Assembly (NCBI RefSeq): GCF_001874645.1
Contig: NZ_CP017886.1
Location: forward strand, 1,612,001 to 1,676,000
Length of the DNA stretch: 64,000 nt
Origin: Pseudomonas frederiksbergensis
Lineage (GTDB): Bacteria > Pseudomonadota > Gammaproteobacteria > Pseudomonadales > Pseudomonadaceae
Reading direction: 5' to 3'
Numbering within the stretch: the first letter of the stretch is position 1; the number at the start of each line of letters is the position of its first letter. Position numbers and translations under genes: made by a program. Below the pieces are notes generated by a model. That model had not been told where the DNA came from. It did no database searches and was given only the letters and a program-made list of their open reading frames with translations. This document shows positions 3,425 to 35,159 of the stretch, piece by piece.

Positions 3425-4075
3425 TTAGTGGCTCGAAATCGACTCAAGTTGTTGCAATAGCAACGCCGCCTGAGTCCGGGTACGCACACCCAACTTGCGG
3501 AATATCGCCGTCACGTGCGCCTTGATCGTCGCCTCCGACACACTCAATTCGTAGGCAATCTGCTTGTTCAGCAGACCTTCGCAGACCATGGTCAATACAC
3601 GGAACTGCTGTGGCGTCAGACTGGCCAAGCCTTCGCTGGCAGCCTTGGCCTCGTCCGAAACGCTGACTGCTTCAAATGCCTGCGGTGGCCAAAAGACATC
3701 GCCATCCAGCACAGAGCGCACGGCTTGTTGAATCACTTCCAATGAACTGGATTTTGGAATGAAACCACTGGCCCCGAACTCACGGGAACGCACCATGATC
3801 GAGGCTTCTTCCTGAGCCGAAACCATCACCACCGGGATCTGCGGGTATTGACCGCGCAACAGCACCAGCCCGGAAAACCCGTACGCGCCCGGCATGTTCA
3901 GGTCCAGCAGCACCAGATCCCAGTCAGCCTTTTCGGTCAGACGGGCTTCCAGCTCGGCAATGCTCGCCACTTCCACCAGACGAACCTCGGGGCCAAGGCC
4001 CAGGGTCACGGCCTGGTGCAGCGCGCTACGAAAGAGTGGGTGGTCATCGGCAATCAGGATTTCGTATGTGGCCAT
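3425..4075 (-). CDS. erdR: NarL/LuxR-type response regulator ErdR
   Basis: A 216-residue two-domain response regulator. The receiver domain has the acidic pair DD at 10-11 and phosphoacceptor Asp58 in LLDLNMPG. The C-terminal LuxR helix-turn-helix is at about residues 149-208 (LTPQQFRVLTMVCEGLLNKQ). No histidine kinase is adjacent. Sequence and location beside dgkA match PA3604/ErdR, which controls ethanol and acetate metabolism genes in Pseudomonas. The start ATG at 4075 gives a standard receiver N-terminus. Confidence 0.85.
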   Translation of the reverse strand: MATYEILIADDHPLFRSALHQAVTLGLGPEVRLVEVASIAELEARLTEKADWDLVLLDLNMPGAYGFSGLVLLRGQYPQIPVVMVSAQEEASIMVRSREFGASGFIPKSSSLEVIQQAVRSVLDGDVFWPPQAFEAVSVSDEAKAASEGLASLTPQQFRVLTMVCEGLLNKQIAYELSVSEATIKAHVTAIFRKLGVRTRTQAALLLQQLESISSH

Positions 4076-4299
4076 TTTTCAAATGATCCTGTTTTTTATG
4101 GCTGACCTGATGCATTCAGGCCTCGCCAAGGCAACTCGAGGCACCACCAGACAGCGGCACCAACAGGGCACGTTCAACGCCAAGAGCCCATAAAACCAGC
4201 GTTTCAATCTTCGGCCGCACCCCAATCGGCGCCAAGGATGCCCAGCGAAGCCTGGGTGGTCAAGCCGCAAACCCGTGGTTAACTCAGTATGGGCGACTC

Positions 4300-5058
4300 T
4301 CAGGGCATGACCGGCGCTGTGTGTTCAACGAATGGCAACAACTCTGTATGGGCCGGGGTCGAGACATTCAATTCCAGCTGATGTTTGGCATCAAGGTAAT
4401 GCTGGCTGAACACATCGAAATAGGCATCCAGTGCCGATGCAGCATCTACATCCCCCGCCAGATCCAGGCACAAGGCAGCCACTTCCGCGGTGCACAGGTG
4501 TTCGCTGCGGGTCGACCTTCGCAAGCGGTATCGTGAGAGCTTTTCGGGGAGCAGGCTCAGAATCGGAAACCCGTCGAAATAAGGGCTTTTGCGAAAAATC
4601 TTTCTCGCCTCGGTCCAGGTTGCATCCAGCAGGATGAACAGTGGGCGCTTCTCGCCAGTCGCCTCAACGGTATGAGTCACCCGTTCGGGCGCAACGTATT
4701 CGCCGGGAAAGACCAGGTAAGGCTGCCACTGCGGGTCAGATAGAAGCTTGATCAGTTCAGGATCGACATCGGTACGCGACCAGATGAAGGCAAAGTTATC
4801 CCTCACCACGTCAGCGATCAGCCAGCCGGTATTGCTCGGTTTGAACACTTCCTTCCTGGTCATGATCAGGCAAACGCCGGCCCGCGATTCGACCTGAGGG
4901 CGCCAGCTGCATAGACAGTGACTCTCGATCACACGGCATGTGTGGCAACGAGGTGCCCGTGAACCGCGGGCCAGAAAAGGCTTGGTGCTCTCTTCTTCGC
5001 GCTCATCGCGCAGGCGGGCTACAGCGTTCATGGCGAAACGCGAAACTGCATGACTCAT
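4300..5058 (-). CDS. DTW-domain tRNA-uridine aminocarboxypropyltransferase
   Basis: A 252-residue member of the DTW family (E. coli TapT/YfiP), which transfers an aminocarboxypropyl group from SAM to tRNA uridine (acp3U). An N-terminal Cys cluster (CHTCRVIESHCLC) probably binds zinc. The family segments KPSNTGWLIADVV, FIWSRTD and the DTW-like LLDATWTEARKIFRKS are present. The ATG at 5058 (MSHAVSRF) was preferred; a 14-residue longer frame exists. The exact tRNA target in Pseudomonas is inferred from E. coli work. Confidence 0.85.
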   Translation of the reverse strand: MSHAVSRFAMNAVARLRDEREEESTKPFLARGSRAPRCHTCRVIESHCLCSWRPQVESRAGVCLIMTRKEVFKPSNTGWLIADVVRDNFAFIWSRTDVDPELIKLLSDPQWQPYLVFPGEYVAPERVTHTVEATGEKRPLFILLDATWTEARKIFRKSPYFDGFPILSLLPEKLSRYRLRRSTRSEHLCTAEVAALCLDLAGDVDAASALDAYFDVFSQHYLDAKHQLELNVSTPAHTELLPFVEHTAPVMP

Positions 5059-5247
5059 CGCTGGCAACGCCGGCGGGGAAGGAAAATCGACACGAAACAC
5101 ACTCGGCAGGGCAGAAAGTCACGGCAGTTTACCAGAGCAGCCAGCCCAAGCCTGTACCGCCTACCCCCGCTCGCCTATAATCCGCCGCCACTGAACGCAC
5201 CGCCATGTGGCTGGTCGAAGCACCAGTCACTGAACCAGGAGAGTTTC

Positions 5248-5673
5248 ATGCTGCGCCTTATCGTCCCCACCGCTGCCCTTCTGCTGGCCCTGCCTTTCAG
5301 CGCTCAAGCAGCCTCCCTGAATGACTTGAATCTGGGCAAGATGCTGGAGAAGGTTGCTGCGGAAAGTAACGTCGGCCTGCCTCGGGAAATCAATGAGAAC
5401 CTGCTCGACCAAGGCTATACGGTTGAAGGCAAACAACTGATCGACCACATCAGCGTGCAATCCGGTTATGCCGACGAAATGCGTGCCAATCCGAAAGCCG
5501 TTTATCTGCAACTGGGCGCCAGCGTTTGCCGCAACGCGAACTATCGCAAGCTGATGGCCAAGGGCGCGATCATGCGTTACGACTTCTCGGAAAACAAAAC
5601 CAATCGCCCCGTAGGCTCGGCCAGCTACCAGGAATCGGATTGCCCTGCGCAGACTGCGCAAAAGAAAAAGTAA
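5248..5673 (+). CDS. Secreted protein, quorum-sensing-regulated virulence factor family (PA3611-like)
   Basis: A 141-residue protein with a clear signal peptide (MLRLIVPTAALLLALPFSAQ, cleavage near AQA-A) and a small alpha/beta domain with two cysteines (SVCRNANYRK and QESDCPAQ) likely to form a disulfide. It resembles P. aeruginosa PA3611, whose family is called putative quorum-sensing-regulated virulence factor; the molecular function is unknown. CAGGAGAG lies upstream of the ATG at 5248. The longer frame from 5050 is not coding, since it overlaps the DTW gene start region. Confidence 0.75.
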   Translation: MLRLIVPTAALLLALPFSAQAASLNDLNLGKMLEKVAAESNVGLPREINENLLDQGYTVEGKQLIDHISVQSGYADEMRANPKAVYLQLGASVCRNANYRKLMAKGAIMRYDFSENKTNRPVGSASYQESDCPAQTAQKKK

Positions 5674-10826: not shown

Positions 10827-11975
10827 CTAGTATTTGATTACGTACAGCAACGCGACGTTGCGAGGACGCGATTCATTGCCGCCGACCGCTGCCACGGTAA
10901 CGGTGTGAGCGTGATCGCCAACGGCAGCTACCGCGACGGTGTGGGCGTGGTCACCCACAGCATTGATCGCCAGGCTATGGCCGTGGTTGCCCCCTGCTGC
11001 AGTCACCGCGTTATAGTCGCCCGGCCCACTGCCGGTGCCCTGACGACCATAAGACGTGTTGTTACCATTGGCATAAACGCCATGCTGGTGATCCCCGGAA
11101 TTGTTAGTGATGCCGGTGTGGGTGTGGGTGCCTGCGCCTCCTGTCGAGGCGCCATGGGTATGTGTACCCGCGCCGGCAGTCGAGGCCGCATGGGTGTGCG
11201 AGGCGTTTTGTCCGCCTTGCGCGCTGCCCAATTCCCGTGCTGCATCGACTCCGCGGCCATCGTCCCAGCCACGTACAAATTCACCGCGCAGATCCGGCAG
11301 GGCAAAGGTCGTACTTCCATTACCTGCGCCAAAACGCGTACCGATGGCCGCGAAAAGCGCGGCATATTGCGTGCGAGAAACGATTTCACCGTTGCATTTC
11401 AGCCAGCCTTTTGACGGTTCTGCAGTCGCTACGGTTTTGATGTCACCAATATCACTGCCGGTCTGCTTGATCATTCCGGTGCTGGCGACCATCACCCAGG
11501 CCCCCTCCGCAATCGAGCTGTTCCATTGCACCCAAACATCGCCTGCGGCAGTGATCTCTCCTTCCTGGACGGCGTTATGGTCAGTACCGACGATGGGTTT
11601 GGCAGCCAGCCCGTTAGGCGAAAAGGTGCTCGCTCCGGTATTGGCGTGCAACGCTTTGAAGCGCAACACCAGGCCGTCGACCAGATTGATGAGCACCGGT
11701 GCATAATTGGCGGCATAGGCATCGGCCTTGCCAGTGTCCAATGCATAATCAACCAATCCCGCCTGATTGATTTTGCGTACAGCCAGCAGCAATTGCCCGA
11801 GCTCGACTTCGTCAGGAACAACCCCCGCGCCTTTGATCACAGCCAGTAACTCTTCTGTAACCGAGTTCCCCCACGCGGCAGGTATCAGTGACCCCGGGGT
11901 ACCATTCAGCGGGTTCTCGTCGACAAACTTTCCATTTACCAGCCCTACGCTGGGCACACTCTTTGGGTAATCCAC
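10827..11975 (-). CDS. Tailocin tail fibre with collar domain and HxH-repeat tip
   Basis: A 382-residue fibre, the likely receptor-binding protein. The N-terminal part (residues 1-110, MDYPKSVPSVGLVNGKFVDE..) should attach to the baseplate. A phage tail-collar domain lies at about 178-245 (GDIKTVA, GWLKCNGE, FALPDLRGEFVRGWDD). The tip carries seven H-x-H motifs at 260, 272, 284, 296, 331, 343 and 355, and ends in NVALLYVIKY. In T4 gp37 such HxH motifs bind iron in a trimeric needle, so a metal-stabilised trimer is inferred. No fibre-assembly chaperone follows. The fibre is short compared with R-pyocin fibres (about 700 residues). Confidence 0.9.
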   Translation of the reverse strand: MDYPKSVPSVGLVNGKFVDENPLNGTPGSLIPAAWGNSVTEELLAVIKGAGVVPDEVELGQLLLAVRKINQAGLVDYALDTGKADAYAANYAPVLINLVDGLVLRFKALHANTGASTFSPNGLAAKPIVGTDHNAVQEGEITAAGDVWVQWNSSIAEGAWVMVASTGMIKQTGSDIGDIKTVATAEPSKGWLKCNGEIVSRTQYAALFAAIGTRFGAGNGSTTFALPDLRGEFVRGWDDGRGVDAARELGSAQGGQNASHTHAASTAGAGTHTHGASTGGAGTHTHTGITNNSGDHQHGVYANGNNTSYGRQGTGSGPGDYNAVTAAGGNHGHSLAINAVGDHAHTVAVAAVGDHAHTVTVAAVGGNESRPRNVALLYVIKY

Positions 11976-22557: not shown

Positions 22558-23301
22558 TTAACGGGCGTACATGCCCCACCAGAAGACGTGACCGAGGATG
22601 ACGATCTGCTCTTCCTGGATCTCCTGGAAGCTGTAGTCCTCATCCGGATGTTCATCGCGATTGAAGCTACGCAGACGAATACCGGTCGGTAGACGATAGA
22701 GCTGTTTCACCCGCAGTTGGCCGTTATGGTTGATGGCATACAGATCACCATCAACGATGTCGCCAATTCCGGACTTGCCGGCGTTGACCCCGACCGTCGC
22801 GCCATCGCGCAGCACCGGCAACATGCTGTTGCCGCGCACTGTCACGCATTTGGCCTGGTCGAACTGCACACCGTTATGTCGCAAGCTGCGCTTGCCGAAG
22901 CGCAAGCTTGAGCGCTCGCTTTCTTCGATGACGAATCTTCCTGATCCAGCAGCCAATTCAACCTCGCGAAGAAAGGGAACCGAGACCTCGTCGTCATCAA
23001 CGGGGGTATCGTCATCCCACAGGCTTATGTCCTTGAGTTCCGAATGCGACTCTTCGCGTGCAGACACAGAGGCCGGCGCAACGTCTGCGCGGCCACGCAA
23101 CTGGTCGGTGCTCACACGGAAGTACTCGGCGATCTTCGAAATGTGTTTATCCGAAGGATCGACAATCTTCCCGCCGAGAATTCGCGAGAGGGTGGATTGA
23201 GGCACGCCGGTGCGACGGTGAAGCTCCGTAGGGGAGATCCCGTGCTGATCGAGCAGCGCTCTTAAGACGGTAGAAACATTGCGTTTTTGCATAACGCGCA
23301 T
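22558..23301 (-). CDS. LexA-like self-cleaving repressor of the tailocin (PrtR/CI type)
   Basis: A 247-residue protein. The N-terminal helix-turn-helix covers about residues 10-70 (SPTELHRRTGVPQSTLSRIL). An acidic linker (DDDTPVDDDE) is followed by an S24 peptidase domain with likely cleavage site Ala118-Gly119 (ELAAGSG), nucleophile Ser159 (GNSM) and base Lys199 (RVKQLY). It is expected to be cleaved with RecA help after DNA damage, which derepresses the operon. Two starts are possible: ATG 23301 (used) or ATG 23292. It resembles P. aeruginosa PrtR; no PrtN-like activator is present. Confidence 0.9.
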   Translation of the reverse strand: MRVMQKRNVSTVLRALLDQHGISPTELHRRTGVPQSTLSRILGGKIVDPSDKHISKIAEYFRVSTDQLRGRADVAPASVSAREESHSELKDISLWDDDTPVDDDEVSVPFLREVELAAGSGRFVIEESERSSLRFGKRSLRHNGVQFDQAKCVTVRGNSMLPVLRDGATVGVNAGKSGIGDIVDGDLYAINHNGQLRVKQLYRLPTGIRLRSFNRDEHPDEDYSFQEIQEEQIVILGHVFWWGMYAR

Positions 23302-23335
23302 AGTGCGTGTTCTTTTCGAAGATGACAAATGCTGA

Positions 23336-23362: not shown

Positions 23363-23548
23363 AAACGTATCGCGGGATCTTCATGCCTGCGCCGGGCATA
23401 TCGAGCACCAGGGTTCAAGCGACTGCGGATGCCTTGGGTAACCCACTGCGCTTGTTACTGTTAGCATATGGAAAAGCCTCCGAATATACACAGGCAACAG
23501 CACTGATTCCAAAATAGGCAGTGCGCTTGCTCGCGAACGGATTTCAAT

Positions 23549-24235
23549 GTGAAGAAAATTGCCATCCTGCAGTCCAACTATATCCCTTGGAAGGGTTACT
23601 TCGACCTCATCGCTGCGGTGGATGAATTTATCCTTTACGATGATATGCAGTTCACCAAAAACGACTGGCGCAACCGTAACCAGATCAAGACGCCACAGGG
23701 CGTACAGTGGCTTACAGTGCCAGTCGGGCAGGATATTCGTCGGCGTATCCGTGATGTACCTCTGGTCGATGGCTGGCAGATCAAACACTGGAAGACCCTA
23801 GAGAGTAACTACCGACGGGCAGCACATTTCGATGCTATCGCTACCTGGCTTCGTCCACTGTACTTAGAAACGTCCTACAGCCACCTAACCCAATTGAACA
23901 GCAACCTGATAAAGGCCATCTGCGTCTACCTGGGCATCAATACACGGATTTCTTGCTCCTGGGATTACCAGATGAGCGAAGGAAAGACCGAGCGTCTGGT
24001 CGACTTGTGCCGGCAGGCAGGCGCCAGTGACTATATTTCCGGGCCATCCGCCAAGGATTACTTGCAGCCCGAACAATTCCAGGCGCAAGGCATCGGTCTG
24101 CACTGGTTCGACTACAGTGACTACCGCGAATACCCGCAACTGTGGGGCCCGTTCGTCCACGGGGTCAGCATTCTTGACCTGCTCTTCAACTGCGGCACTG
24201 GATCTAAAACTTACATGAAGCATGTCACCTTATGA
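23549..24235 (+). CDS. WbqC-like family protein
   Basis: A 228-residue protein with the WbqC signature at its start (MKKIAILQSNYIPWKGYFDL) and internal DDMQFTKNDWRNRNQI, KHWKTLESNYRR and YISGPSAKDYL. WbqC-like proteins occur in O-antigen and flagellin-glycan clusters next to DegT/RffA aminotransferases; their reaction is not established. It starts at a GTG (23549) and is the first gene of a tightly packed five- or six-gene operon running away from the tailocin. It overlaps the next gene by ATGA. Confidence 0.85.
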   Translation: MKKIAILQSNYIPWKGYFDLIAAVDEFILYDDMQFTKNDWRNRNQIKTPQGVQWLTVPVGQDIRRRIRDVPLVDGWQIKHWKTLESNYRRAAHFDAIATWLRPLYLETSYSHLTQLNSNLIKAICVYLGINTRISCSWDYQMSEGKTERLVDLCRQAGASDYISGPSAKDYLQPEQFQAQGIGLHWFDYSDYREYPQLWGPFVHGVSILDLLFNCGTGSKTYMKHVTL

Positions 24236-25155
24236 GACTGTCCATCGTCGCCACCCTGTATCAGTCAGCCCTCCACCTCCAAGAGTTTCATGCACGCTGC
24301 AGCAGCGTCGCGCATGCACTTGCAGGCGATGACTATGAAATCGTCCTGGTCAACGACGGCTCGCCCGATGACAGCCTGGCTCGAGCCATTCGCCTGACGG
24401 AAACTGATCGCCATGTGGTGTTGGTCGATCTTTCAAGAAACTTCGGCCATCACAAGGCGATGATGACAGGGCTCGCCCACGCCAAGGGCGACGAGGTGTT
24501 CTTGATTGACAGCGACCTGGAGGAGCCTCCAGAGTGCCTGCTGACCTTTTCCGAGCAAATGCGCGGCGAGGACTGTGACGTGGTCTTTGGGGTGCAGGAG
24601 CAGCGCAAAGGCAGCTGGTTCGAACGCTTGAGCGGAGGTCTCTTCTGGACGTTGATCAACCGGCTGTCGGGTCTGTCGATCCCCGCCAACGTGGTCACCG
24701 CTCGCTTGATGAGTCGGCGTTATGTCGATGCGCTGTTGTGCCATGAAGAACGAGAGGTGTTCATGGCAGGGCTGTTTCAAATCACCGGCTTCGTACAAAA
24801 GGCTGTCACCATACAAAAACTCAGCAGTAGCCAGTCGACCTACACCTTGAGGCGCAAGTTGTCGCTGGTGGTAAACTCCGTCACCTCTTTCAGCGTCCTG
24901 CCGCTGGTCGCCATTTTCTACCTCGGCCTGATTATCTTCTCATTTGCCTGCTGCTATACCGTCTATCTGACGATCAACTCGCTGTTCTTCTCCTATACCA
25001 TGGCGGGCTGGACCTCAGTGATGGTCTCGATATGGTTGCTTGGCGGTCTGGTCCTCTCATGCATGGGCGTCATCGGCATCTACCTGTCCAAAATATTCTC
25101 CGAAAGCAAGCGCCGCCCCTACACCATCGTCAGGAATATTTATGGTCGCTCATGA
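24232..25155 (+). CDS. GtrB-like family 2 glycosyltransferase
   Basis: A 307-residue GT-A enzyme with NDGS at 41-44 and the catalytic DSD at 93-95 (LIDSDLEEPPE, compare DADLQDPPE in GtrB). Two C-terminal membrane spans lie at about 223-250 and 262-288. This is the polyprenyl-phosphate glycosyltransferase architecture (GtrB, ArnC, DPM1): it would load a sugar onto undecaprenyl phosphate at the inner face of the inner membrane. The pairing with GtrA 80 bases downstream supports this. Confidence 0.88.
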   Translation: MRLSIVATLYQSALHLQEFHARCSSVAHALAGDDYEIVLVNDGSPDDSLARAIRLTETDRHVVLVDLSRNFGHHKAMMTGLAHAKGDEVFLIDSDLEEPPECLLTFSEQMRGEDCDVVFGVQEQRKGSWFERLSGGLFWTLINRLSGLSIPANVVTARLMSRRYVDALLCHEEREVFMAGLFQITGFVQKAVTIQKLSSSQSTYTLRRKLSLVVNSVTSFSVLPLVAIFYLGLIIFSFACCYTVYLTINSLFFSYTMAGWTSVMVSIWLLGGLVLSCMGVIGIYLSKIFSESKRRPYTIVRNIYGRS

Positions 25156-25237
25156 CGACAAGCGGCTGGTTTTCCTCTGCCTTGGCGGTGTAAGTATATT
25201 GGCTCTCACCCTAGCGCTGGACGTGGCAACTGAATGA
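25142..25237 (+). CDS. Possible 31-residue membrane peptide
   Basis: The frame MVAHDDKRLVFLCLGGVSIL.. has a single hydrophobic segment. It overlaps the end of the GT2 gene by 14 bases and the gtrA start by ATGA. Overlap on both sides suggests translation in the operon. It could also be the remnant of a lost gene or simply a spacer. No family recognised. Confidence 0.35.
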   Translation: MVAHDDKRLVFLCLGGVSILALTLALDVATE

Positions 25238-25644
25238 ACAGCCTGACCGCTCGACTGAAAAACCGGATACCCACTGCGCAACTGCTCAAGTATGCCTTGG
25301 TCGGCTTACTCAGCAATGCCTGTGGCTATGCCCTTTATCTGTTGCTGACTGAACTGGGGAGCACTCCGAAGCTGACCATGACTGCACTTTATGTGGCTGG
25401 CGCGCTGATCGGTTTCTTCGGAAACCGCCGTCTGACCTTCTCCTACCAAGGTGGGATCCTAGGTTCAGGCATACGCTACATCCTGGCCCACACTATTGGT
25501 TATGGCATCAACTTCTGTCTACTCGCCGTGTTTGTCGATCACTTCGGTTATGCGCACCAGTGGGTACAAGCGGCGGCCATCTTAGTGGTCGCCGGCTATC
25601 TGTTCGTGACCCTCAAACTCTTCGTATTCAAGGCAACCCAATGA
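25234..25644 (+). CDS. GtrA-family polyprenyl-sugar flippase
   Basis: A 136-residue protein with four membrane spans and the GtrA signature (QLLKYALVGLLSNACGYALY, then GFFGNRRLTFSYQG, and C-terminal YLFVTLKLFVFK). GtrA proteins move undecaprenyl-phosphate-linked glucose or other sugars to the periplasm in phage serotype conversion and cell wall glycosylation. It overlaps the methyltransferase start by ATGA. Confidence 0.9.
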   Translation: MNSLTARLKNRIPTAQLLKYALVGLLSNACGYALYLLLTELGSTPKLTMTALYVAGALIGFFGNRRLTFSYQGGILGSGIRYILAHTIGYGINFCLLAVFVDHFGYAHQWVQAAAILVVAGYLFVTLKLFVFKATQ

Positions 25645-26393
25645 CCTCGTCCGATCGTTCGCCTTTTCCGTCCTCGTCCTATGGTCAACTTGCTCAGGCG
25701 GAGTCGGGTCATTGGTGGTTCAAAGTGCGCAATAAGCTAGTGCTCTGGGCCCTGACAAAAAAAGTAAGGCCCTTTAACAGCCTGCTAGAGATTGGCTGTG
25801 GCACCGGTTATGTACTCGAAGGAATCAGTCGTGTCTGGCCGCAGATTGAGCTACACGGTTCGGAATACTTCGAGGAAGGACTTGAGTACGCCCGCAAGCG
25901 CATTCCAACCGCGCAGCTCAGACAGCTGGACGCGACCCAGTTGGATGAAGTCGATCGATATGACGTAGTCAGTGCATTCGACGTCATCGAACATATAGAG
26001 CAGGACGAGACAGTATTGCGCAACCTTGCCCGGGCCATCCGTCCTGGAGGCTCCCTGGTGCTGACGGTACCGCAACATCGCTGGCTTTGGTCGCAGGTCG
26101 ACGAATATGCCTGCCATGTGCGTCGATACAGCCGAGCCGAACTGGTGGAAAAGGTTCAGCGAGCCGGCCTACAAGTGAGCTATGTCAGCTCTTTCGTCAG
26201 TCTACTGATCCCCTTGATGTGGCTCTCCAGAAAACGCGCGAGCAAGCAGCATGACCCCATGAACGAACTGAACATCCCTCGCTGGCTTAACCGTTCCCTG
26301 GAAACGGTGATGCAAATCGAACTGCTGCTGATCAAGACGGGCGTACGTTTTCCCATCGGCGGCTCACTGTTGATGATCGCCACTAAACCCTGA
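25641..26393 (+). CDS. Class I SAM-dependent methyltransferase
   Basis: A 250-residue enzyme with SAM motif I LLEIGCGTGYVLEG at about 48-61, acidic residue in ELHGSEY, and motifs DVVSAFDVIEHIEQDE and AIRPGGSLVLTVPQH. The N-terminal ESGHWWFKVRNKLV is common in methyltransferases of surface-glycan clusters. The substrate is probably the sugar or lipid-linked intermediate of this operon (inference). The ATG at 25641 overlaps the gtrA stop; the longer frame from 25560 lies in gtrA. Confidence 0.85.
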   Translation: MTSSDRSPFPSSSYGQLAQAESGHWWFKVRNKLVLWALTKKVRPFNSLLEIGCGTGYVLEGISRVWPQIELHGSEYFEEGLEYARKRIPTAQLRQLDATQLDEVDRYDVVSAFDVIEHIEQDETVLRNLARAIRPGGSLVLTVPQHRWLWSQVDEYACHVRRYSRAELVEKVQRAGLQVSYVSSFVSLLIPLMWLSRKRASKQHDPMNELNIPRWLNRSLETVMQIELLLIKTGVRFPIGGSLLMIATKP

Positions 26394-26406
26394 TCGGAAT
26401 ACTGCG

Positions 26407-27546
26407 ATGACTAGCGAAAAAATTCAATTTAACCGCCCTCACATGACCGGCAAGGAACTGTACTATATCGCCGAAGCCAAGTTCGGCAACATGCTGGCAG
26501 GCGACGGGCCGTTCACCAAGCGCTGTCACCAGTGGCTGGAAAACACCAGCGGTTGCAACAAGGCACTGCTGACTCACTCTTGCACCGCAGCGCTGGAAAT
26601 GGCTGCCCTGCTGCTGGATATCCAGCCCGGCGATGAGATCATCATGCCGTCCTACACCTTCGTCTCCACCGCCAACGCGTTCGTGCTGCGTGGTGGTGTA
26701 CCAGTGTTTGTGGATATTCGCGAAGACACGCTTAACCTCGACGAGCGCTTGATCGAGGCAGCCATCACCCCGCGCACCCGGGCTATTGTTCCCGTGCACT
26801 ATGCGGGCGTAGCCTGCGAGATGGACAGCATTCTGGCGATCGCACAACGACACGACTTGCACGTTGTCGAAGATGCCGCACAAGGCATCATGGCCAGTTA
26901 CAAAGGACGTCCACTGGGAAGCCTTGGCAGCCTTGGCGCATTGAGCTTCCATGAAACCAAGAACGTCATATCCGGCGAAGGCGGCGCGCTGCTGGTCAAC
27001 GATCCGGCCTTGGTTCGACGCGCTGAGATCATTCGCGAAAAAGGCACAGACCGCAGCAGCTTCTTCCGTGGTGAAGTGGACAAGTACACCTGGCAAGAAG
27101 TCGGATCGTCATTTCTGCCTGGCGAATTGATCGCAGCATTTCTCTGGGCACAACTGGAGGAAGCTACAGGCATCACCGAGCAGCGGCTGGCCTGCTGGCA
27201 GCACTACCATGATGCCTTGGCGCCCCTGGAGCAGAAGGGTCTGCTCAGACGCCCGATCATACCCGCCGACTGCACCCACAACGCCCACATGTACTACGTA
27301 CTGCTGGACTCGCAGATTGACCGCCAGGCGGTGCTCAATGCGCTAAAAAGCGCGGGCATTCACTCAGTGTTCCACTACGTTCCCCTGCATTCGTCGCCAG
27401 CCGGCAAACGCTATGGCAGGGTCCATGGCTCAATGGCCGTGACCGACCAGCAATCGGAACGACTGATCCGCTTGCCCCTGTGGGTAGGATTGACGCCTGA
27501 ACAGCAGGATCGCGTCATTGCCGTACTCGTTGCAGCTATTGGCTGA
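26407..27546 (+). CDS. rffA: dTDP-4-amino-4,6-dideoxygalactose transaminase (RffA/WecE-like)
   Basis: A 379-residue PLP aminotransferase of the DegT/DnrJ/EryC1 family. The PLP lysine is Lys185 (SFHETKNVISGEGG), preceded by DAAQGI. MTGKELYYIAEA near the start and C-terminal HSVFHYVPLHSSPAGKRYGR are the WecE/RffA hallmarks. It converts dTDP-4-keto-6-deoxyglucose to dTDP-Fuc4N. The dTDP-sugar precursors (RmlA/RmlB) are not in this window. It is the last gene of the plus-strand operon. Confidence 0.92.
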   Translation: MTSEKIQFNRPHMTGKELYYIAEAKFGNMLAGDGPFTKRCHQWLENTSGCNKALLTHSCTAALEMAALLLDIQPGDEIIMPSYTFVSTANAFVLRGGVPVFVDIREDTLNLDERLIEAAITPRTRAIVPVHYAGVACEMDSILAIAQRHDLHVVEDAAQGIMASYKGRPLGSLGSLGALSFHETKNVISGEGGALLVNDPALVRRAEIIREKGTDRSSFFRGEVDKYTWQEVGSSFLPGELIAAFLWAQLEEATGITEQRLACWQHYHDALAPLEQKGLLRRPIIPADCTHNAHMYYVLLDSQIDRQAVLNALKSAGIHSVFHYVPLHSSPAGKRYGRVHGSMAVTDQQSERLIRLPLWVGLTPEQQDRVIAVLVAAIG

Positions 27547-27581
27547 GTTCCTCAGTAGTCCCGCTCACTACGCGCCTGCGC

Positions 27582-27605
27582 TGTAGGAGCGGGCGCCCCT
27601 CCTAC
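27582..27605. repeat. Short REP-like hairpin between convergent glycan genes
   Basis: CTGTAGGAGCGGGCGCCCCT followed by CCTAC, a variant of the window's GTAGGAGC-type repeat. It sits between rffA and the convergent membrane protein gene and could also act as a bidirectional terminator. Confidence 0.5.
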
Positions 27606-29248
27606 CTGACACCAAAATCGACGCAGCAATAACCACGGTCATTCTGCCGCTGGACATCGCGAAACTCATTGGGCACCCACTCACAGCGCGTGATCAGGCC
27701 CGGGCTATTCCTTTCCTTGAGAAATGGCAGCAACTTGCCATTGAGCAGATCCCCGCCGTAGCCAAACTCCGAAACATACAGGACGTGTACAGGGCTACGA
27801 TCTTTCAGATAGGCGAAGTAGGTCATGTGATCGACCACCACGTGCTCAGCGTGATCCGCCGGAATATGACAGGACTCGCCTAGTTCCCGGATCGAATCCA
27901 GGTGTGCCTTGGCGCCCAGTACCGGTACGGACAGCGGCTGACCAGGAATACTGGCGTTTGCGTATTCGGCATTGCGCAGCAGGTTCGGTGTTACCAGGTA
28001 GAACAGCGTGAACAACGATATTAGCGACAGACCGGCCACAAACGCCAATGTCAGGTGCCCAGCTACCCTGACCGCAAACCATGGCCGGACAACCGGCAGG
28101 CATTGGAACAGCAAGGCGACGATAACAATAGACAGTGGGACATACTGAATGCCGGCATAAAAGTTCTGGAGGTTATACAGCGCGACATTGATCAGATCGC
28201 CCGCGGCCAGCAGTGACGCCAGGAGAAGTGCAGCCGACATCCGCCGACGTGCCAGGGAGATCACTGCCATCCCCAACGCCAGCAAGTGGCTGCCCACCAC
28301 TAACACCAGAAGGGTGTTGTAAATGAGTGGATTCAACCAGAGCAACAGGTCAGGTTTTTCCGTCAAGGGCGGAAGCCAACCCGATTGAAAGGTCGGACTG
28401 AAGGTCAAGTGAACGAGCATGCGCTGGGGAAACAGGCTGATGTTTTGCCAAACAGCTCCAAAGAACGCAACAGGGTCGCTCAATAGCATACCGGGCATCA
28501 GGCTGTTGGCAGCCAGCAACGCCTGGATGGCTGGTGCATCCTGGCATCCCCCCAACAAACTGGCATCGCGCAACACTTGCACACTCAACGCAAGTACATA
28601 GAGAACCAGGCCCGCGCGAATCAGCAGATTGAAGCCTCGGGTGGCAATCCACACGGTAGCAAGAAGAAATGGCGTGAAAAACAGGCTCTTGGGATGAGCA
28701 TAGAAAAACACCGACAGCAGCAGCCCCAACCCGCCCATTACGGCCAATTGCCTTCCTCCGCTGCCCTGCGCAGGGGTGAGCACTGCCAACATGCAAAAGA
28801 TCAGAACCGGCAACAACATAAACTGCTCCGGGCGCGACAGCACCCAGAGATAGGGCATTACCCCCAGTGACGCGAAAGCAACCAGAAAGGTAAAGCGCTT
28901 GGCTCCTTCCCCAGCGGCCTGTCTATGACACCAGTAAGCCAACAGCCCGAACCAAGCCAACGCGAGTACAACGCCACTCACACGTAGGCCCAAAGGCTCC
29001 AGGTAAGCATAAACTGAAGAAATCAGTATTGCCGCCGGATAAAAGACCCAAGCTACCCCATGGCCGACAGTAGTGGTGCATTGTGGAAAAAACGAGAGCA
29101 TCTGCCCGCTTTCCAGGAAAAAGCGCGCGTTGTTGAACTTGGTCATAATCTCATCAGAGTAAACCGGCAAAAACACTCCGCTGAGCAGCGCACAGATCAG
29201 CACCATCGGCATCAGCTGGAGAATTTTTTTACATACAGCGTTACGCAT
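27602..29248 (-). CDS. Polytopic GT-C-type membrane glycosyltransferase candidate (GtrC-like role)
   Basis: A 548-residue integral membrane protein with about 11 hydrophobic spans and a soluble C-terminal part (residues 430-548). An acidic motif SDE in the first extracytoplasmic loop (VYSDEIMTKFNNARFF) is the usual metal/catalytic site of GT-C enzymes that use polyprenyl-linked sugars. No exact family was recognised. With GtrA and GtrB nearby it fills the type-specific transferase slot (GtrC), adding the flipped sugar to LPS in the periplasm (inference). It is convergent with the upstream operon. Confidence 0.65.
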   Translation of the reverse strand: MRNAVCKKILQLMPMVLICALLSGVFLPVYSDEIMTKFNNARFFLESGQMLSFFPQCTTTVGHGVAWVFYPAAILISSVYAYLEPLGLRVSGVVLALAWFGLLAYWCHRQAAGEGAKRFTFLVAFASLGVMPYLWVLSRPEQFMLLPVLIFCMLAVLTPAQGSGGRQLAVMGGLGLLLSVFFYAHPKSLFFTPFLLATVWIATRGFNLLIRAGLVLYVLALSVQVLRDASLLGGCQDAPAIQALLAANSLMPGMLLSDPVAFFGAVWQNISLFPQRMLVHLTFSPTFQSGWLPPLTEKPDLLLWLNPLIYNTLLVLVVGSHLLALGMAVISLARRRMSAALLLASLLAAGDLINVALYNLQNFYAGIQYVPLSIVIVALLFQCLPVVRPWFAVRVAGHLTLAFVAGLSLISLFTLFYLVTPNLLRNAEYANASIPGQPLSVPVLGAKAHLDSIRELGESCHIPADHAEHVVVDHMTYFAYLKDRSPVHVLYVSEFGYGGDLLNGKLLPFLKERNSPGLITRCEWVPNEFRDVQRQNDRGYCCVDFGVR

Positions 29249-29386
29249 GGTTAAACGCCAAGCCGATAGACGAAGGAGGTGCGCACGCTATCATTAGCCG
29301 GCCAGTGAGTGAAGCGCGTAGTTACAACAAACCTCTTCGGGCTGCACTCAAATCGCCCGCTAGTTGCCTTGATGCTCTCTAGATAT

Positions 29387-29965
29387 TTAGTGGCTCGCCC
29401 GCTTCTGAACATAGACCGATCCTGCCTTTATGAAGGAACCACTTGGCACAGCCGTATGGTCGACCACCACCGCACCAGCACCAATGAAGGTATCGATTCC
29501 TACTCGGGAATACCCACAGAGGGTGGCGTTCGGGGAAATGAACGTGTTTCCATCTACCACGCAGTCGTGGTTGATCACAGCCCCGGGCCATACGACAACC
29601 AGATCCCCGACATGCGCCCTGATGTCGAGAACAGCACGAGCCATGACCATGGCGCCAGCGCCAACCGTGGTGCTGTCGCTCACATAGGCCTGCGGGTGAA
29701 TGAAAGACGGCAGACTGTAGCCGTGAGCAAGCAGCTCGTCGAACTTGCGCTGACGTGCCTCAAGGTGTTTGTACCCGATGGCAATGGCAAAATCATACTC
29801 ATCAGGCGGGCATTTATGGATGACGTCTTCCAGCGTTCCGACAATACCCTCTCCGGTATGCCAGTCATCGACGAAACCGGCGAAATACGCCCCGCTGTGC
29901 CGTACCAGCTCGCGCACAACGACGCCAAACTCTGTAGAACCATAAACGAGAATTTTCTTCTTCAT
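29387..29965 (-). CDS. NeuD/PglD-like sugar acyltransferase
   Basis: A 192-residue protein with an N-terminal Rossmann-like PglD_N domain (MKKKILVYGSTEFGVVVREL) and a C-terminal left-handed beta-helix of hexapeptide repeats (VGAGAMVMARAVLDIRAHVG; SRVGIDTFIGAGAVV). The family acetylates or acylates amino sugars, for example the 4-amino group in PglD. The substrate may be the RffA product. It starts at ATG 29965 and would be transcribed toward the GT-C gene, 138 bases away. Confidence 0.85.
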   Translation of the reverse strand: MKKKILVYGSTEFGVVVRELVRHSGAYFAGFVDDWHTGEGIVGTLEDVIHKCPPDEYDFAIAIGYKHLEARQRKFDELLAHGYSLPSFIHPQAYVSDSTTVGAGAMVMARAVLDIRAHVGDLVVVWPGAVINHDCVVDGNTFISPNATLCGYSRVGIDTFIGAGAVVVDHTAVPSGSFIKAGSVYVQKRASH

Positions 29966-30220
29966 TGATCGCGGCCACTTCCTCAAAGTCGATTACATGC
30001 CAGGAAGCCTAGCTCCTCATGCATACGCTCTAAGGTATCAGACTCCCTGAAGTAAAAATCAAATCAGCACCAGGAAAAAAACACCCACTCGATAGCCGGC
30101 AGGAGATGAGAGTCATTGAAGCCAGGTTTCATACTACGCAGCTTCATGCCCATGGAACCTATAAAAGACTACACGCCCTTATCACCACTGATATACCTGG
30201 AAGTTTCAAGACACAAATAA

Positions 30221-31160
30221 ATGCTAAATTCCATAGAGTTCCTTAGGGCTTTTGCCGCATGGATCGTAGTACTGCATCACTACGTACAACTTTCCGAAAA
30301 CAAAGACAGCAACATGACTACACCACCACCCCACAGCCACTAGTCAATAGGCGTAGATATTTTCTTTACCATCAGCGGCTTTGTGATTGACGCATCAGCC
30401 TCTAAAAAAACAATCTCTCCAAAAGAGTTTGCAACACACCGAATAGCTCGAATAGTCCCAGCGTACTGGCTATACACCCTTATCACAGCACTAACAATAG
30501 TTAGTGCTGCCAACACAATGCCGGCCCTTGGCAGCAACTTGTATTTTTTCTAAAAAACATATTATTTTTGCCAGCTCCCAGAACCTAGATCACTCCCAGT
30601 AGTATCTGCAGGGCGGACTTTAAATTTCGAAGCGGCTTTTTATGTTGTTTGGGCTTTATCTCTTTTCATGCCTAAATATTTTTTAGCGACAGGACCTTTT
30701 ATTGGAATAGTACTCATGCAAACATCCACACCAAAACTCGGAGGCGCATTCACCCTCTACGGAACACCAACAATTTACAATTTCCTGCTTGGAATTTTTA
30801 TTACCGAGATTTATAAGCGCGGCCACCACCAATCGGCACCTCTAACTGCAGCAATATTTATCCTCGCAACATCTACAATCGTAATTGCCACTTCAGGATC
30901 CGTCGCCCCCCCTTGCGCATTGGGTTGCCATGTGCAGCTATAGTACTTACCCTGTTTTCGCAAGAGCACCGCCTCTGCGAAAGGTTGCACATAAGCAAGC
31001 TCGGGGACTGGTCTTACTAAACTTACTCATCTCACTCGATAACTATATTTTATGTGCCCGCCTTCCAAAAAAAAGAACCGACTTATACCCAACCATTACT
31101 TTTATATCAATTTGCGCCACTGCCCTGCCATGTCCGTATGCAAGTTACAAATATATTTAA
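30221..31160 (+). pseudogene. Decayed acyltransferase-3 (OafA-like O-acetylase)
   Basis: The frame from ATG 30221 reads MLNSIEFLRAFAAWIVVLHH, the family start. It is broken by TAG at 30341-30343, then continues in the same frame with SIGVDIFFTISGFVID and RIARIVPAYWLY, is broken again by TAA at 30551-30553, and goes on with TLNFEAAFYVVWALS. After 30943 the similarity seems to move to another frame (SYSTYPVF). So there are two nonsense codons and at least one frameshift. The region is AT-rich compared with its neighbours, which suggests foreign origin. It once probably acetylated O-antigen. Confidence 0.85.
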
Positions 31161-31668
31161 CTACCGCCCCCGCTTTTATAAAGCACATTTTTCAACCTAA
31201 GAGAAAAAGGCTTTCAGCCCCCAATTAGAAGTCGCCTATCGAGAAGCGCTGACTTATCGAACCGCCTGAAACTCATACCCAACCCGGCAAAAATTTCACA
31301 GCCAGACACCTAACGACCGGACAAAGTCATAGCGCGCATGCTCGGAGCGCTTTATAGACAGCAATCAGGAAGCTCTTATAAAAAACCAGGAAGCACTCTT
31401 GCCAGATTTTGCTGCACCACTCCTCATCTGTAGCAAAACAAGTAGAGAAAATATCTTTCACACGAAACCCTATCCAAGGTCATGATGGCGTATTAACGTC
31501 ACAAAACAGGGCCGCAGCCAATGGTCCCGCAGCCTGTCGGCAACCTTGGGCGCAGGCATGTTAACCTTATGATATGTGCTGATCACGCGAGGCTATAGGT
31601 TCGGTATTTGCGAATCGGAATGCCTCATTTTCGCCCCAAAGACTTTGATATTTACCCATAAGCCACTG
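31161..31668. other. Intergenic region before mutS
   Basis: 508 bases, AT-rich at the left and returning to host composition near 31500. No gene, repeat or RNA structure could be supported. It should hold the mutS promoter. It marks the right boundary of the variable region. Confidence 0.5.
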
Positions 31669-34248
31669 ATGAATAAAGCAATTTCCGACTTGTCCTCCCA
31701 CACCCCGATGATGCAGCAGTACTGGCGTCTGAAGAACCAGCACCCCGACCAGCTGATGTTCTACCGTATGGGCGACTTCTACGAGATCTTCTATGAAGAC
31801 GCGAAGAAGGCCGCCAAATTGCTGGATATCACCCTGACCGCCCGTGGGCAATCAGCTGGGCAGGCGATTCCAATGTGCGGGATTCCTTACCACGCTGCGG
31901 AAGGTTACCTGGCGAAACTGGTCAAGCTCGGTGAATCGGTGGTGATCTGTGAGCAGGTCGGCGACCCGGCGACCAGCAAAGGCCCGGTGGATCGTCAGGT
32001 GGTTCGGATCATCACCCCCGGCACCGTCAGTGATGAAGCGCTGCTGGATGAACGTCGCGATAACCTGATCGCCGCCGTGTTGGGTGACGAACGTCTGTTC
32101 GGCCTGGCCGTGCTGGACATCACCAGCGGCAACTTCAGCGTGCTGGAGATCAAAGGCTGGGAAAACCTGCTGGCGGAGCTGGAGCGGGTCAATCCGGTCG
32201 AGCTGATGATTCCGGATGACTGGCCAAAAGACTTGCCGGCAGAGAAGCGTCGTGGCGTTCGTCGTCGTGCACCGTGGGATTTCGAACGTGATTCGGCGCT
32301 GAAAAGTCTTTGCCAGCAATTTTCCACCCAGGACCTCAAAGGTTTTGGCTGCGAGAACCTGACCCTGGCCATCGGTGCCGCCGGCTGCCTGTTGAGCTAC
32401 GCCAAGGAAACCCAGCGCACCGCCCTGCCGCATTTGCGCAGCCTGCGTCATGAGCGCCTGGACGATACCGTGGTGCTGGACGGCGCAAGCCGTCGCAACC
32501 TGGAGCTGGACACCAACCTTGCCGGTGGCCGTGAGAACACCCTGCAATCGGTAGTCGACCGTTGCCAGACCGCCATGGGCAGCCGCTTGCTGACCCGCTG
32601 GCTGAACCGCCCACTGCGCGATTTGACCGTGCTGCTGGCACGCCAGACCTCGATCACCTGCCTGCTCGACGGATACCGCTTCGAGAAACTGCAACCGCAG
32701 CTGAAAGAAATCGGTGACATCGAGCGGATCCTGGCGCGTATTGGCCTGCGTAACGCTCGTCCTCGTGACCTGGCTCGCCTGCGCGACGCCCTCGGCGCCC
32801 TGCCAGAACTGCAAGTGGCGATGACCGAGCTTGAGGCGCCACACCTGAACCAACTGGCCGTGACCACCAGCACTTATCCCGAGCTGGCCGCCCTGCTGGA
32901 AAAAGCCATCATCGACAACCCACCCGCGGTGATCCGTGACGGCGGCGTGTTGAAAACCGGTTACGACGCTGAGCTAGACGAGCTGCAATCGCTGAGTGAA
33001 AACGCCGGGCAATTCCTGATCGACCTCGAAGCCCGCGAGAAGGCTCGTACCGGCCTGGCCAACCTGAAAGTCGGCTACAACCGGATTCACGGTTACTTCA
33101 TCGAACTGCCAAGCAAACAGGCAGAACAGGCGCCGGCCGATTACATCCGCCGCCAGACCCTCAAAGGTGCCGAGCGCTTTATCACGCCTGAGCTCAAAGC
33201 CTTCGAAGACAAGGCGCTGTCGGCCAAGAGCCGTGCGCTGGCCCGCGAGAAGATGCTTTACGAAGCCTTGCTCGAAGACCTGATCGACCAACTGCCACCG
33301 CTGCAGGACACCGCCGCGGCACTGGCCGAGCTGGATGTCTTGAGCAACCTGGCCGAGCGCGCGCTGAACCTTGACCTGAACTGCCCACGGTTCGTCAGCG
33401 AGCCTTGCATGCGTATCAGCCAGGGTCGTCACCCGGTGGTCGAACAAGTATTGACCACGCCGTTCGTGGCCAACGACCTGGGCCTGGACGACAGCACACG
33501 GATGCTGGTGATTACCGGTCCGAATATGGGCGGTAAATCCACTTACATGCGGCAAACGGCACTGATTGTGCTGCTGGCGCATATCGGCAGCTTCGTGCCG
33601 GCCGCCAGTTGCGAATTATCGCTGGTGGACCGGATCTTCACCCGGATCGGCTCCAGCGATGACCTGGCCGGTGGCCGTTCGACCTTCATGGTCGAGATGA
33701 GCGAAACCGCGAACATCTTGCACAACGCCACCGAACGCAGCCTGGTGCTGATGGACGAAGTCGGCCGCGGCACCAGCACCTTCGACGGCCTGTCGCTGGC
33801 CTGGGCAGCAGCCGAGCGTTTGGCTCAGCTGCGCGCCTACACACTGTTCGCCACCCACTACTTCGAGCTGACAGTACTGCCGGAAAGCCAGCCGCTGGTG
33901 GCCAACGTCCACCTCAACGCCACCGAACACAACGAGCGCATCGTATTCCTCCACCACGTACTGCCTGGCCCTGCCAGCCAGAGCTACGGATTGGCGGTTG
34001 CGCAACTGGCCGGCGTACCCACCGAGGTAATCGTGCGGGCTCGCGAGCATCTGGGTCGCCTGGAAGCCACGGCGCTGCCTCACGAAACTGCGAAACCAAC
34101 CAAAGGCAAACTGGCCGCACCGCAACAGAGCGATATGTTCGCCAGCTTGCCGCATCCGGTGCTGGATGAACTGGCAAAACTCGATCTGGATGACCTGACG
34201 CCGCGTCGCGCACTCGAAATGCTCTATACACTGAAGACACGGATCTAA
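31669..34248 (+). CDS. mutS: DNA mismatch repair protein MutS
   Basis: An 859-residue MutS, normal length. The mismatch-probing Phe-x-Glu is in [14 protein letters not shown], and the ATPase Walker A is [16 protein letters not shown] with downstream [16 protein letters not shown] and [16 protein letters not shown]. It finds mismatches and recruits MutL. The ATG at 31669 ([20 protein letters not shown]) is the conserved start; the ATG at 31576 adds an unrelated 31-residue extension. It marks the second chromosomal flank of the tailocin/glycan region. Confidence 0.98.
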
Positions 34249-34855: not shown

Positions 34856-34986
34856 AAAAAAAGGGGCGGTATGACCCGCCCACATTTTTTCCCTATTCCC
34901 TGTGTTCCTTTTCATCGTCCTGATGAATCACGTCCCTGCGATGTTCCTTGACCATCGTCCTTGATGGCTGTGTCTATCCGTCGACA
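34856..34986 (-). ncRNA. rsmZ: RsmZ, sRNA that sequesters RsmA/CsrA proteins
   Basis: The minus strand begins TGTCGACGGATAGACACAGC and ends in a GC-rich terminator (GGGCGG..CCGCCC then seven T), about 131 nt. It carries repeated GGA motifs in loops or single strands (AAGGACG, AAGGAAC, CAGGGAC, CAGGACG, AAGGAAC, CAGGGAA, TAGGGAA), the binding sites for RsmA/RsmE. The place between fdxA and rpoS is that of rsmZ in P. aeruginosa and P. fluorescens. Titrating RsmA relieves repression of secondary metabolism and exoproduct mRNAs. A -10 (TAATAT) lies at 34995-35000. Confidence 0.93.
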
Positions 34987-35159
34987 CAGGGCTGATATTA
35001 AAGAGTTCCCCGACAAGAGCAATCATCTGCCACGGGTAAGCCTGGGTGAAACGGAATGTTTAACTATAAAAAATGTCATTATAAATCAATTAGTTATTTA
35101 ATTTAGCCACCAAAGATAGACGACCACTACCCGGTAGAAAAACCGAACACTTACGAAAG

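Follow-up and report, generated by a model that had tools for sequence, protein, structure and literature searches.

What is a set of sugar-modifying genes doing beside a tailocin repressor, and does it bear on how strains that make tailocins withstand these particles themselves? The question arises from a 64,000-nucleotide stretch of Pseudomonas frederiksbergensis (RefSeq assembly GCF_001874645.1, contig NZ_CP017886.1, positions 1,612,001 to 1,676,000 of the forward strand), referred to here as the window, in which a module of seven genes lies between the tailocin repressor and mutS. According to a published article (PMC8319346), lipopolysaccharide (LPS) is the receptor for this kind of tailocin, and tailocins have no known immunity genes. 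We propose, at a probability of roughly 0.6, that the seven genes form a mobile module for decorating a surface glycan with an N-acylated 4-amino-4,6-dideoxyhexose, which would be added to its presumed acceptor in an undecaprenyl phosphate-dependent manner, and that they are not dedicated to pairing with the tailocin.

Families in the window were called with Pfam, NCBIfam, and PHROGs, and structural relatives were taken from PDB. The repressor (22558 to 23316, minus strand) is a PrtR-like protein with HTH and peptidase S24 domains (PF01381 and PF00717) and is 93% identical to PrtR of EU982300, with 236 residues searched. Between it and mutS stand seven intact open reading frames (ORFs) and one decayed gene, with five of the module ORFs on the plus strand and two on the minus strand. 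The plus-strand genes begin with wbqC (23549 to 24235), which encodes a WbqC-like protein of 228 amino acids (aa) (PF08889, 279 bits) for which the PDB search returned no credible solved relative. Next come gtrB (24232 to 25155), encoding a polyprenyl-phosphate glycosyltransferase of family GT2 (PF00535) that matches phrog_841, "GtrB-like O-antigen conversion," at 217 bits and has sll0501 (5ekp, 2.5e-51) as its best PDB match, followed by ArnC, and gtrA (25234 to 25644), encoding a putative flippase of the GtrA family (PF04138, 58.9 bits against a cut-off of 26.1). They are joined by a class I SAM-dependent methyltransferase (25641 to 26393; PF13489 and PF08242) and by wecE (26407 to 27546), a dTDP-4-amino-4,6-dideoxyhexose transaminase related to PDB 4piw/4zah (6.9e-156), whose product exceeds curated cut-offs for both TIGR02379 (651.2 versus 434.85 bits) and PRK11706 (630.6 versus 375). 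On the minus strand are a polytopic 548-aa protein (27602 to 29248), a proposed periplasmic GT-C-like glycosyltransferase on the strength of its profile relatives and a YSDE motif, and a sugar N-acetyltransferase resembling NeuD, PglD, and VioB (29387 to 29965, ATG start assumed; PF00132 and PF17836; PDB 4m98, 4ea7, and 7txp). The decayed gene (about 30210 to 31170, plus strand) is an acyltransferase-3 (AT3; O-acyltransferase) relic with several in-frame stops, one piece of which matches the AT3 profile at 1.1e-05. GC content is 0.44 in this relic, 0.55 in the module, and about 0.61 in the tailocin and mutS. A 31-aa ORF between gtrB and gtrA was dropped, as it is not conserved in three related loci described below (L202, L196, and L197).

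The initial annotation had described this interval as a three-part gtrABC-like cassette. Though correct in its main point, this description lacks detail: GtrB, GtrA, and the polytopic protein do lie between repressor and mutS, but a three-part unit is ruled out because wbqC, the methyltransferase, WecE, and the NeuD/VioB-like acetyltransferase share the interval. What stands is a surface-glycan modification unit, recognizable by GtrB and GtrA, with a tailocin alongside and a GtrB that has relatives in SfV-type phages; modification of LPS or of another surface glycan is its likely role.

The route that we infer for the module runs as follows. WecE would aminate dTDP-4-keto-6-deoxyglucose supplied by the housekeeping enzymes RmlA and RmlB, the NeuD/VioB-like enzyme would N-acetylate the new amino group, and further changes to the sugar would be made by the methyltransferase and WbqC. 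GtrB would then load the sugar onto undecaprenyl phosphate, GtrA would flip the lipid-linked sugar, and, on the periplasmic side, the 548-aa membrane protein may pass it on to a surface glycan, O-antigen being the most likely one. The genome encodes rmlB twice above the cut-off (522 and 502 versus 365.1 bits), and by eye one of the copies has an RmlA-like ORF next to it; the substrate of WecE should therefore be available. A dTDP sugar route is independently suggested by a Neorhizobium plasmid, on which wbqC, a GT2 gene, methyltransferases, rfbA, and rffA/wecE form one cluster.

The module interrupts what is usually a short gap. We located mutS in 298 Pseudomonas genomes, counting the source of the window, and examined up to 20 kb upstream of it in the 120 with the most similar mutS; G148, G035, G266, G224, and G140 were skipped despite a similar mutS, and six of the 120 stretches are shorter owing to contig ends. 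A repressor homologue occurs in 95 of these 120 intervals and is at least 70% identical in 93, of which 67 have a repressor-mutS gap below 400 bp; in the window this gap measures 8,350 bp. Similarity to the empty gaps, which are about 150 to 200 bp long, ends near 23,398, and alignments restart at the mutS start, with a 12-base match by eye near 31,557; the inserted stretch thus spans approximately 23399 to 31556, limits set by eye. At its ends, a search for terminal repeats gave short matches only. None of the seven module genes was found in any of the 120 other mutS-upstream intervals (tblastn, E ≤ 1e-5). We suggest that in this lineage the module inserted into the short repressor-mutS gap, which in other tailocin loci is a slot for cargo. 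As a side observation, the mutS leader (31569 to 31668) is unlike that of short-gap loci, and therefore the insertion may have altered mutS expression; mutS itself runs from 31669 to 34248 on the plus strand (start assumed; the ORF is open from 31576), and its N-terminal part is matched in 298 of 298 genomes of the genus.

Copies of the set occur in other genomes. A profile of the 548-aa protein scanned over 84,980 species genomes, from which records very near the window may be omitted, yielded 10 loci. Pseudomonas sp. 6D_7.1_Bac1 (L202) carries the same module at the same site, with 93.5% nucleotide identity over 7.4 kb, and has an intact 657-aa acetylase where the window has the acyltransferase relic. 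In strains GM48 (L196/L203) and PB101 (L197/L210), the full set of seven lies at other chromosomal places, in unchanged order and with about 82 to 84% identity, the 548-aa gene of PB101 being truncated. Recurrence of this gene order in three other genomes, at 82 to 93.5% nucleotide identity, makes the module more than a chance assembly. In GM48 and PB101 the repressor and cinA are 648 and 634 bp apart, respectively, and therefore no tailocin lies between them. Looser modules are present in six Pseudomonas loci (548-aa protein at 47 to 58%) and one Rhodoferax metagenome-assembled genome (29%), with no mutS, repressor, or sheath in the flanks examined. One of these (L199) adjoins, by eye, a WbpM-like gene that resembles the end of an O-antigen cluster; wbpM is the usual end of the Pseudomonas O-antigen cluster. 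In another (L198, 3726 to 7361, genome G005), wecE appears by eye to be split by transposase-like ORFs, in the manner of an insertion.

Within the 298 genomes, the 548-aa protein occurs in 9 (E ≤ 1e-10) and a close WecE in 57 (E ≤ 1e-120), the window's own genome included in each count. A profile search of a large protein set retrieved 84 matches to the 548-aa protein, itself among them, of which a few bear source names starting with glycosyltransferase. The YSDE motif is invariant in six sequences, and its Y, D, and E are kept in at least 90% of 49 homologues. No relative of the 548-aa protein was found in IMG/VR viral contigs, and GtrB, the sole module gene reported for the 80 IMG/VR repressor loci, is in none of them. 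Three IMG/VR loci (L212 from 2807, L213 from 2678, and L214 from 5001) have a WecE relative (64 to 65%) adjoining a WbqC relative (55%). All seven genes are conserved with dN/dS below 0.3 (0.05 to 0.27 against L202 and 0.04 to 0.17 against GM48). Between the window and GM48, module dS (0.53 to 0.88) is similar to or higher than the values for the repressor (0.54) and mutS (0.57, over 100 codons); by that measure this group has probably had the module for a long time, or related species have exchanged it.

Several results weigh against a mobile decoration module of the kind proposed here. The 548-aa protein has no Pfam, NCBIfam, or PHROG match, and no Pfam family is matched by more than one of its 49 homologues; its structure model, with a mean pLDDT of 46.6, was too poor to serve as evidence of a GT-C fold and was discarded. 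The acetyltransferase falls below the TIGR03570 cut-off (150.2 versus 160.8 bits). With respect to mobility, no transposase was recognized among the ORFs of the insert, and its borders show no clean target duplication. A WbqC relative occurs in 26 IMG/VR loci, among them the three with an adjoining WecE relative, so parts of the module are not exclusive to bacterial chromosomes. Moreover, the sugar could go to flagellin, exopolysaccharide, or core rather than to O-antigen.

Other loci of the group also carry cargo between repressor and mutS. Loci were counted as tailocin bearing if the repressor-cinA distance exceeded 5 kb or if cinA was absent from the stretch; two loci of 4.4 kb, one of them with a fibre match (L055), were counted as tailocin-less, and one of 5.2 kb (L056) as bearing. 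On this basis, and excluding L121 (inverted) and L106 (contig end), a gap above 900 bp occurs in 24 of 63 tailocin-bearing loci versus 0 of 28 tailocin-less loci (Fisher 4.8e-5, with no phylogenetic correction), and most of the 24 resemble two groups of similar genomes, grouped with no tree. AT3 acyltransferases lie in the gaps of L045, L128, and L202, as does the relic in the window; a match of at least 58% to the L128 type was found in 2 of 298 genomes, one being that of L128 itself. Wzy_C proteins, of the O-antigen polymerase/ligase family, are encoded in the gaps of L151 (17747 to 19120, genome G233) and, by similarity, L153 (882 to 2315, genome G170), and a Wzy_C relative in G005 (L366) adjoins a spanin homologue. 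Additional contents include a zeta toxin in L081 (by similarity also in L106 and, in pieces, L118), a PIN protein with a transposase in L126, and a group II intron in L045, while many cargo-bearing gaps show no known domain. The gaps of L131, L132, L135 to L138, and L128 share a conserved ORF of about 250 aa with no Pfam match, adjoined in several of these loci by an ORF of about 165 aa. Upstream of the tailocin repressor in L297 are a Shedu-like (SduA_C) ORF and an MCP gene (894 to 2780 and 3659 to 5416).

O-antigen acetylases provide a second line of inquiry. The L202 acetylase matches phrog_6705, "O-antigen acetylase," at 574 bits, and its relatives give 29 matches in 28 of the 298 genomes. 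Tail, lysis, or repressor homologues lie within 1.5 kb in 8 of these 29 loci versus 0 of 37 control loci (Fisher 7e-4), the controls being 29 wecE loci and 8 loci of the 548-aa protein, some sharing genomes with each other. None of nine further sugar loci in the window's own genome has such neighbours. Among five IMG/VR acetylase loci, four have a spanin homologue and two a fibre. In SfV-like tail clusters, an O-antigen-acetylase-like gene stands beside the fibre in L335 (1501 to 4756, G233), L336 (1420 to 4744, G002), L369, L370, and L121; four of these five also have a spanin or endolysin homologue, and the adjoining fibres are of types 283 to 294 aa long. An apparent link between the type-5 fibre and the acetylase is not claimed, as four of the five loci were obtained via the acetylase, and a search from the fibre side gave one close full-length match, on the same contig.

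The same loci bear on whether fibre and module travel together. Full-length relatives of the window fibre (10827 to 11975, minus strand, an ORF) were found in 16 IMG/VR loci at 56 to 97% identity after residue 90, and in six of them (L240, L312, L260, L279, L276, and L261; 57 to 97%) the repressor and mutS are on the contig, making the gap readable. Module genes are present in none of these six, nor in any of 152 IMG/VR fibre loci. The closest (L240, 1 to 9779, fibre 97%) has a gap of 173 bp and a mutS that other phage-like DNA interrupts at about codon 19; by eye, its left flank contains ORFs resembling phage replication and integrase genes, which would fit entry of a prophage at the start of mutS beside a tailocin. 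In another same-fibre locus, L288 (1 to 4134), where the gap is open, a different gene pair adjoins the tailocin repressor, namely, a 665-aa polytopic protein that weakly matches a phage glucosyltransferase, together with a tandem sugar-nucleotidyltransferase-like protein. L202, on the other hand, carries the module with other fibres: three fibre genes 12 to 16 kb from the repressor resemble that of the window over the first ~70 residues (61 to 71%), and one also matches it at 39% over residues 216 to 286. Because six same-fibre loci lack the module and L202 combines it with other fibres, fibre and module are uncoupled in the loci examined, which are small in number.

These data allow the competing explanations to be weighed. 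The initial annotation had proposed that the cassette changes the LPS of the producer against its own particles or is exchanged with fibre types. The module does abut the repressor, and from position alone, the wbqC operon, which is transcribed divergently from it, could be active without induction. It also occupies the same place in a second species, where its dS from the window (0.12 to 0.27) is at or below that of the repressor (0.28) and mutS (0.34), so that it has probably stayed with the locus since the two split; the sheath has a dS of 0.25, exceeded among module genes solely by the acetyltransferase (0.27). Set against this are the different fibres of L202, the six same-fibre loci without the module, the absence of module genes from 120 other mutS-upstream intervals, and GM48 and PB101, which keep the set elsewhere with no tailocin between cinA and mutS, the part of these genomes searched for one. 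Exchange with fibre types therefore finds no support, occurrence away from a tailocin holds for the cinA-mutS interval, and a fibre-linked immunity cassette is not likely; we regard a dedicated immunity or range function co-inherited with the fibre allele as improbable. Since close relatives carry the set elsewhere without such a weapon beside it, the module is probably a mobile surface-coat module rather than a dedicated immunity partner, and any effect on tailocin sensitivity would be a by-product of changed LPS. That the product is instead a flagellin or exopolysaccharide glycan has a precedent in Pseudomonas syringae, in which an aminotransferase, acetyltransferase, and methyltransferase together make the modified 4-amino-4,6-dideoxyglucose borne by flagellin. 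GtrB and GtrA, however, suggest by family transfer of an undecaprenyl-phosphate sugar in the periplasm, and no flagellar genes were recognized by eye in the flanks, where no dedicated search was made; such a target seems improbable to us.

Broader than a single immunity cassette is the idea that tailocin loci of this group keep phage-type O-antigen-conversion genes as linked receptor switches, of which the module would be one instance. The fibre-adjacent AT3 genes of L121, L335, L336, L369, and L370, the AT3 and Wzy_C genes in repressor-mutS gaps, the excess of acetylase loci with tail, lysis, or repressor neighbours over controls, and the restriction of gap cargo to tailocin-bearing loci all point this way. 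However, much of the cargo is unrelated to sugar or without a known domain (zeta toxin, PIN, group II intron, MCP, and Shedu), cargo loci fall into groups of similar genomes, AT3 is common (279 of 298 genomes) and, from the fibre side, appears in 9 of 152 IMG/VR loci, and some neighbours may belong to intact prophages rather than tailocins. As an account of the module this is unlikely, while the more modest general statement, that tailocin loci repeatedly contain O-antigen-conversion genes, has gained support. Its most far-reaching version, that SfV-like tailocin loci keep ancestral lysogenic conversion, with exchangeable acetylases, polymerase-like proteins, and glycosylation modules near the fibre-lysis end or the repressor that re-type the producer and would be the first tailocin-linked immunity or receptor-switching genes, is a shade more doubtful again. 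No description of such genes in tailocin loci was found in the titles and abstract openings searched, a coverage that leaves out most subscription papers.

Additional searches concerned defence, regulation, and flanking features. For five of the module proteins submitted to PADLOC, the sole match was that of the methyltransferase to part of one model (mad2). PrtR-operator-like repeats were rejected, as the pattern tried gave 3 matches versus 6 expected by chance. Promoter-like matches are near those of shuffled sequences (8 versus 6.6) and terminator-like matches exceed them (16 versus 9.3, standard deviation 3.2); neither is used as evidence. Downstream of mutS lies the small RNA RsmZ (34856 to 34988, minus strand; RF00166, 125 bits), the sole Rfam match reaching its gathering score.

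Returning to the survival of producers, the module that we favour is a probable LPS decoration unit that occurs at different sites in chromosomes, while the wider pattern yields a short list of candidates for linked self-resistance: acetylases beside fibres and Wzy_C beside the repressor. In P. syringae, the type of fibre is reported to vary together with the LPS gene rfbD (PMC12208367). The related tail cluster of Pf-5 prophage 01, which is described as similar to SfV, lies in the mutS-cinA interval (PMC2647930).

Among known systems, the gtrABC genes of phages SfV and SfII are like the module in their GtrB (31 to 32%; 31.8% to SfV over 98%), GtrA, and polytopic third protein, and the module likewise adjoins an SfV-like tail cluster (Mavrodi et al., PMC2647930). 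In contrast to phage gtrABC, a three-gene unit that relies on a host-made sugar, the window has seven genes in the order B-A, its own sugar-nucleotide genes (a transaminase, acetyltransferase, and methyltransferase), and a third protein without a PHROG match or IMG/VR relative. The arn operon, which adds 4-amino-4-deoxy-arabinose to lipid A, is a parallel in its aminotransferase, ArnC-like GT2 (PRK10714, 129 bits, cut-off 529), small flippase, and large membrane protein. It differs in that the window transaminase is WecE and not ArnB (651 versus 216 bits), GtrA replaces ArnE/F, and neither a decarboxylase nor a formyltransferase is among the seven window genes. The VioA/VioB and WecE/WecD pathways to N-acetyl-4-amino-4,6-dideoxyhexoses are approached through a WecE above its cut-off and an acetyltransferase resembling PglD-type enzymes, perosamine N-acetyltransferase, and VioB, while the module departs from them in the subthreshold TIGR03570 score of that acetyltransferase and in the extra WbqC and methyltransferase. 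Finally, the conversion set of phage D3 consists of an acetylase and a polymerase; its likeness, in genes alone, is not the window module but the tailocin locus of G233, which combines a Wzy_C protein in the repressor-mutS gap with an O-antigen acetylase beside the fibre.

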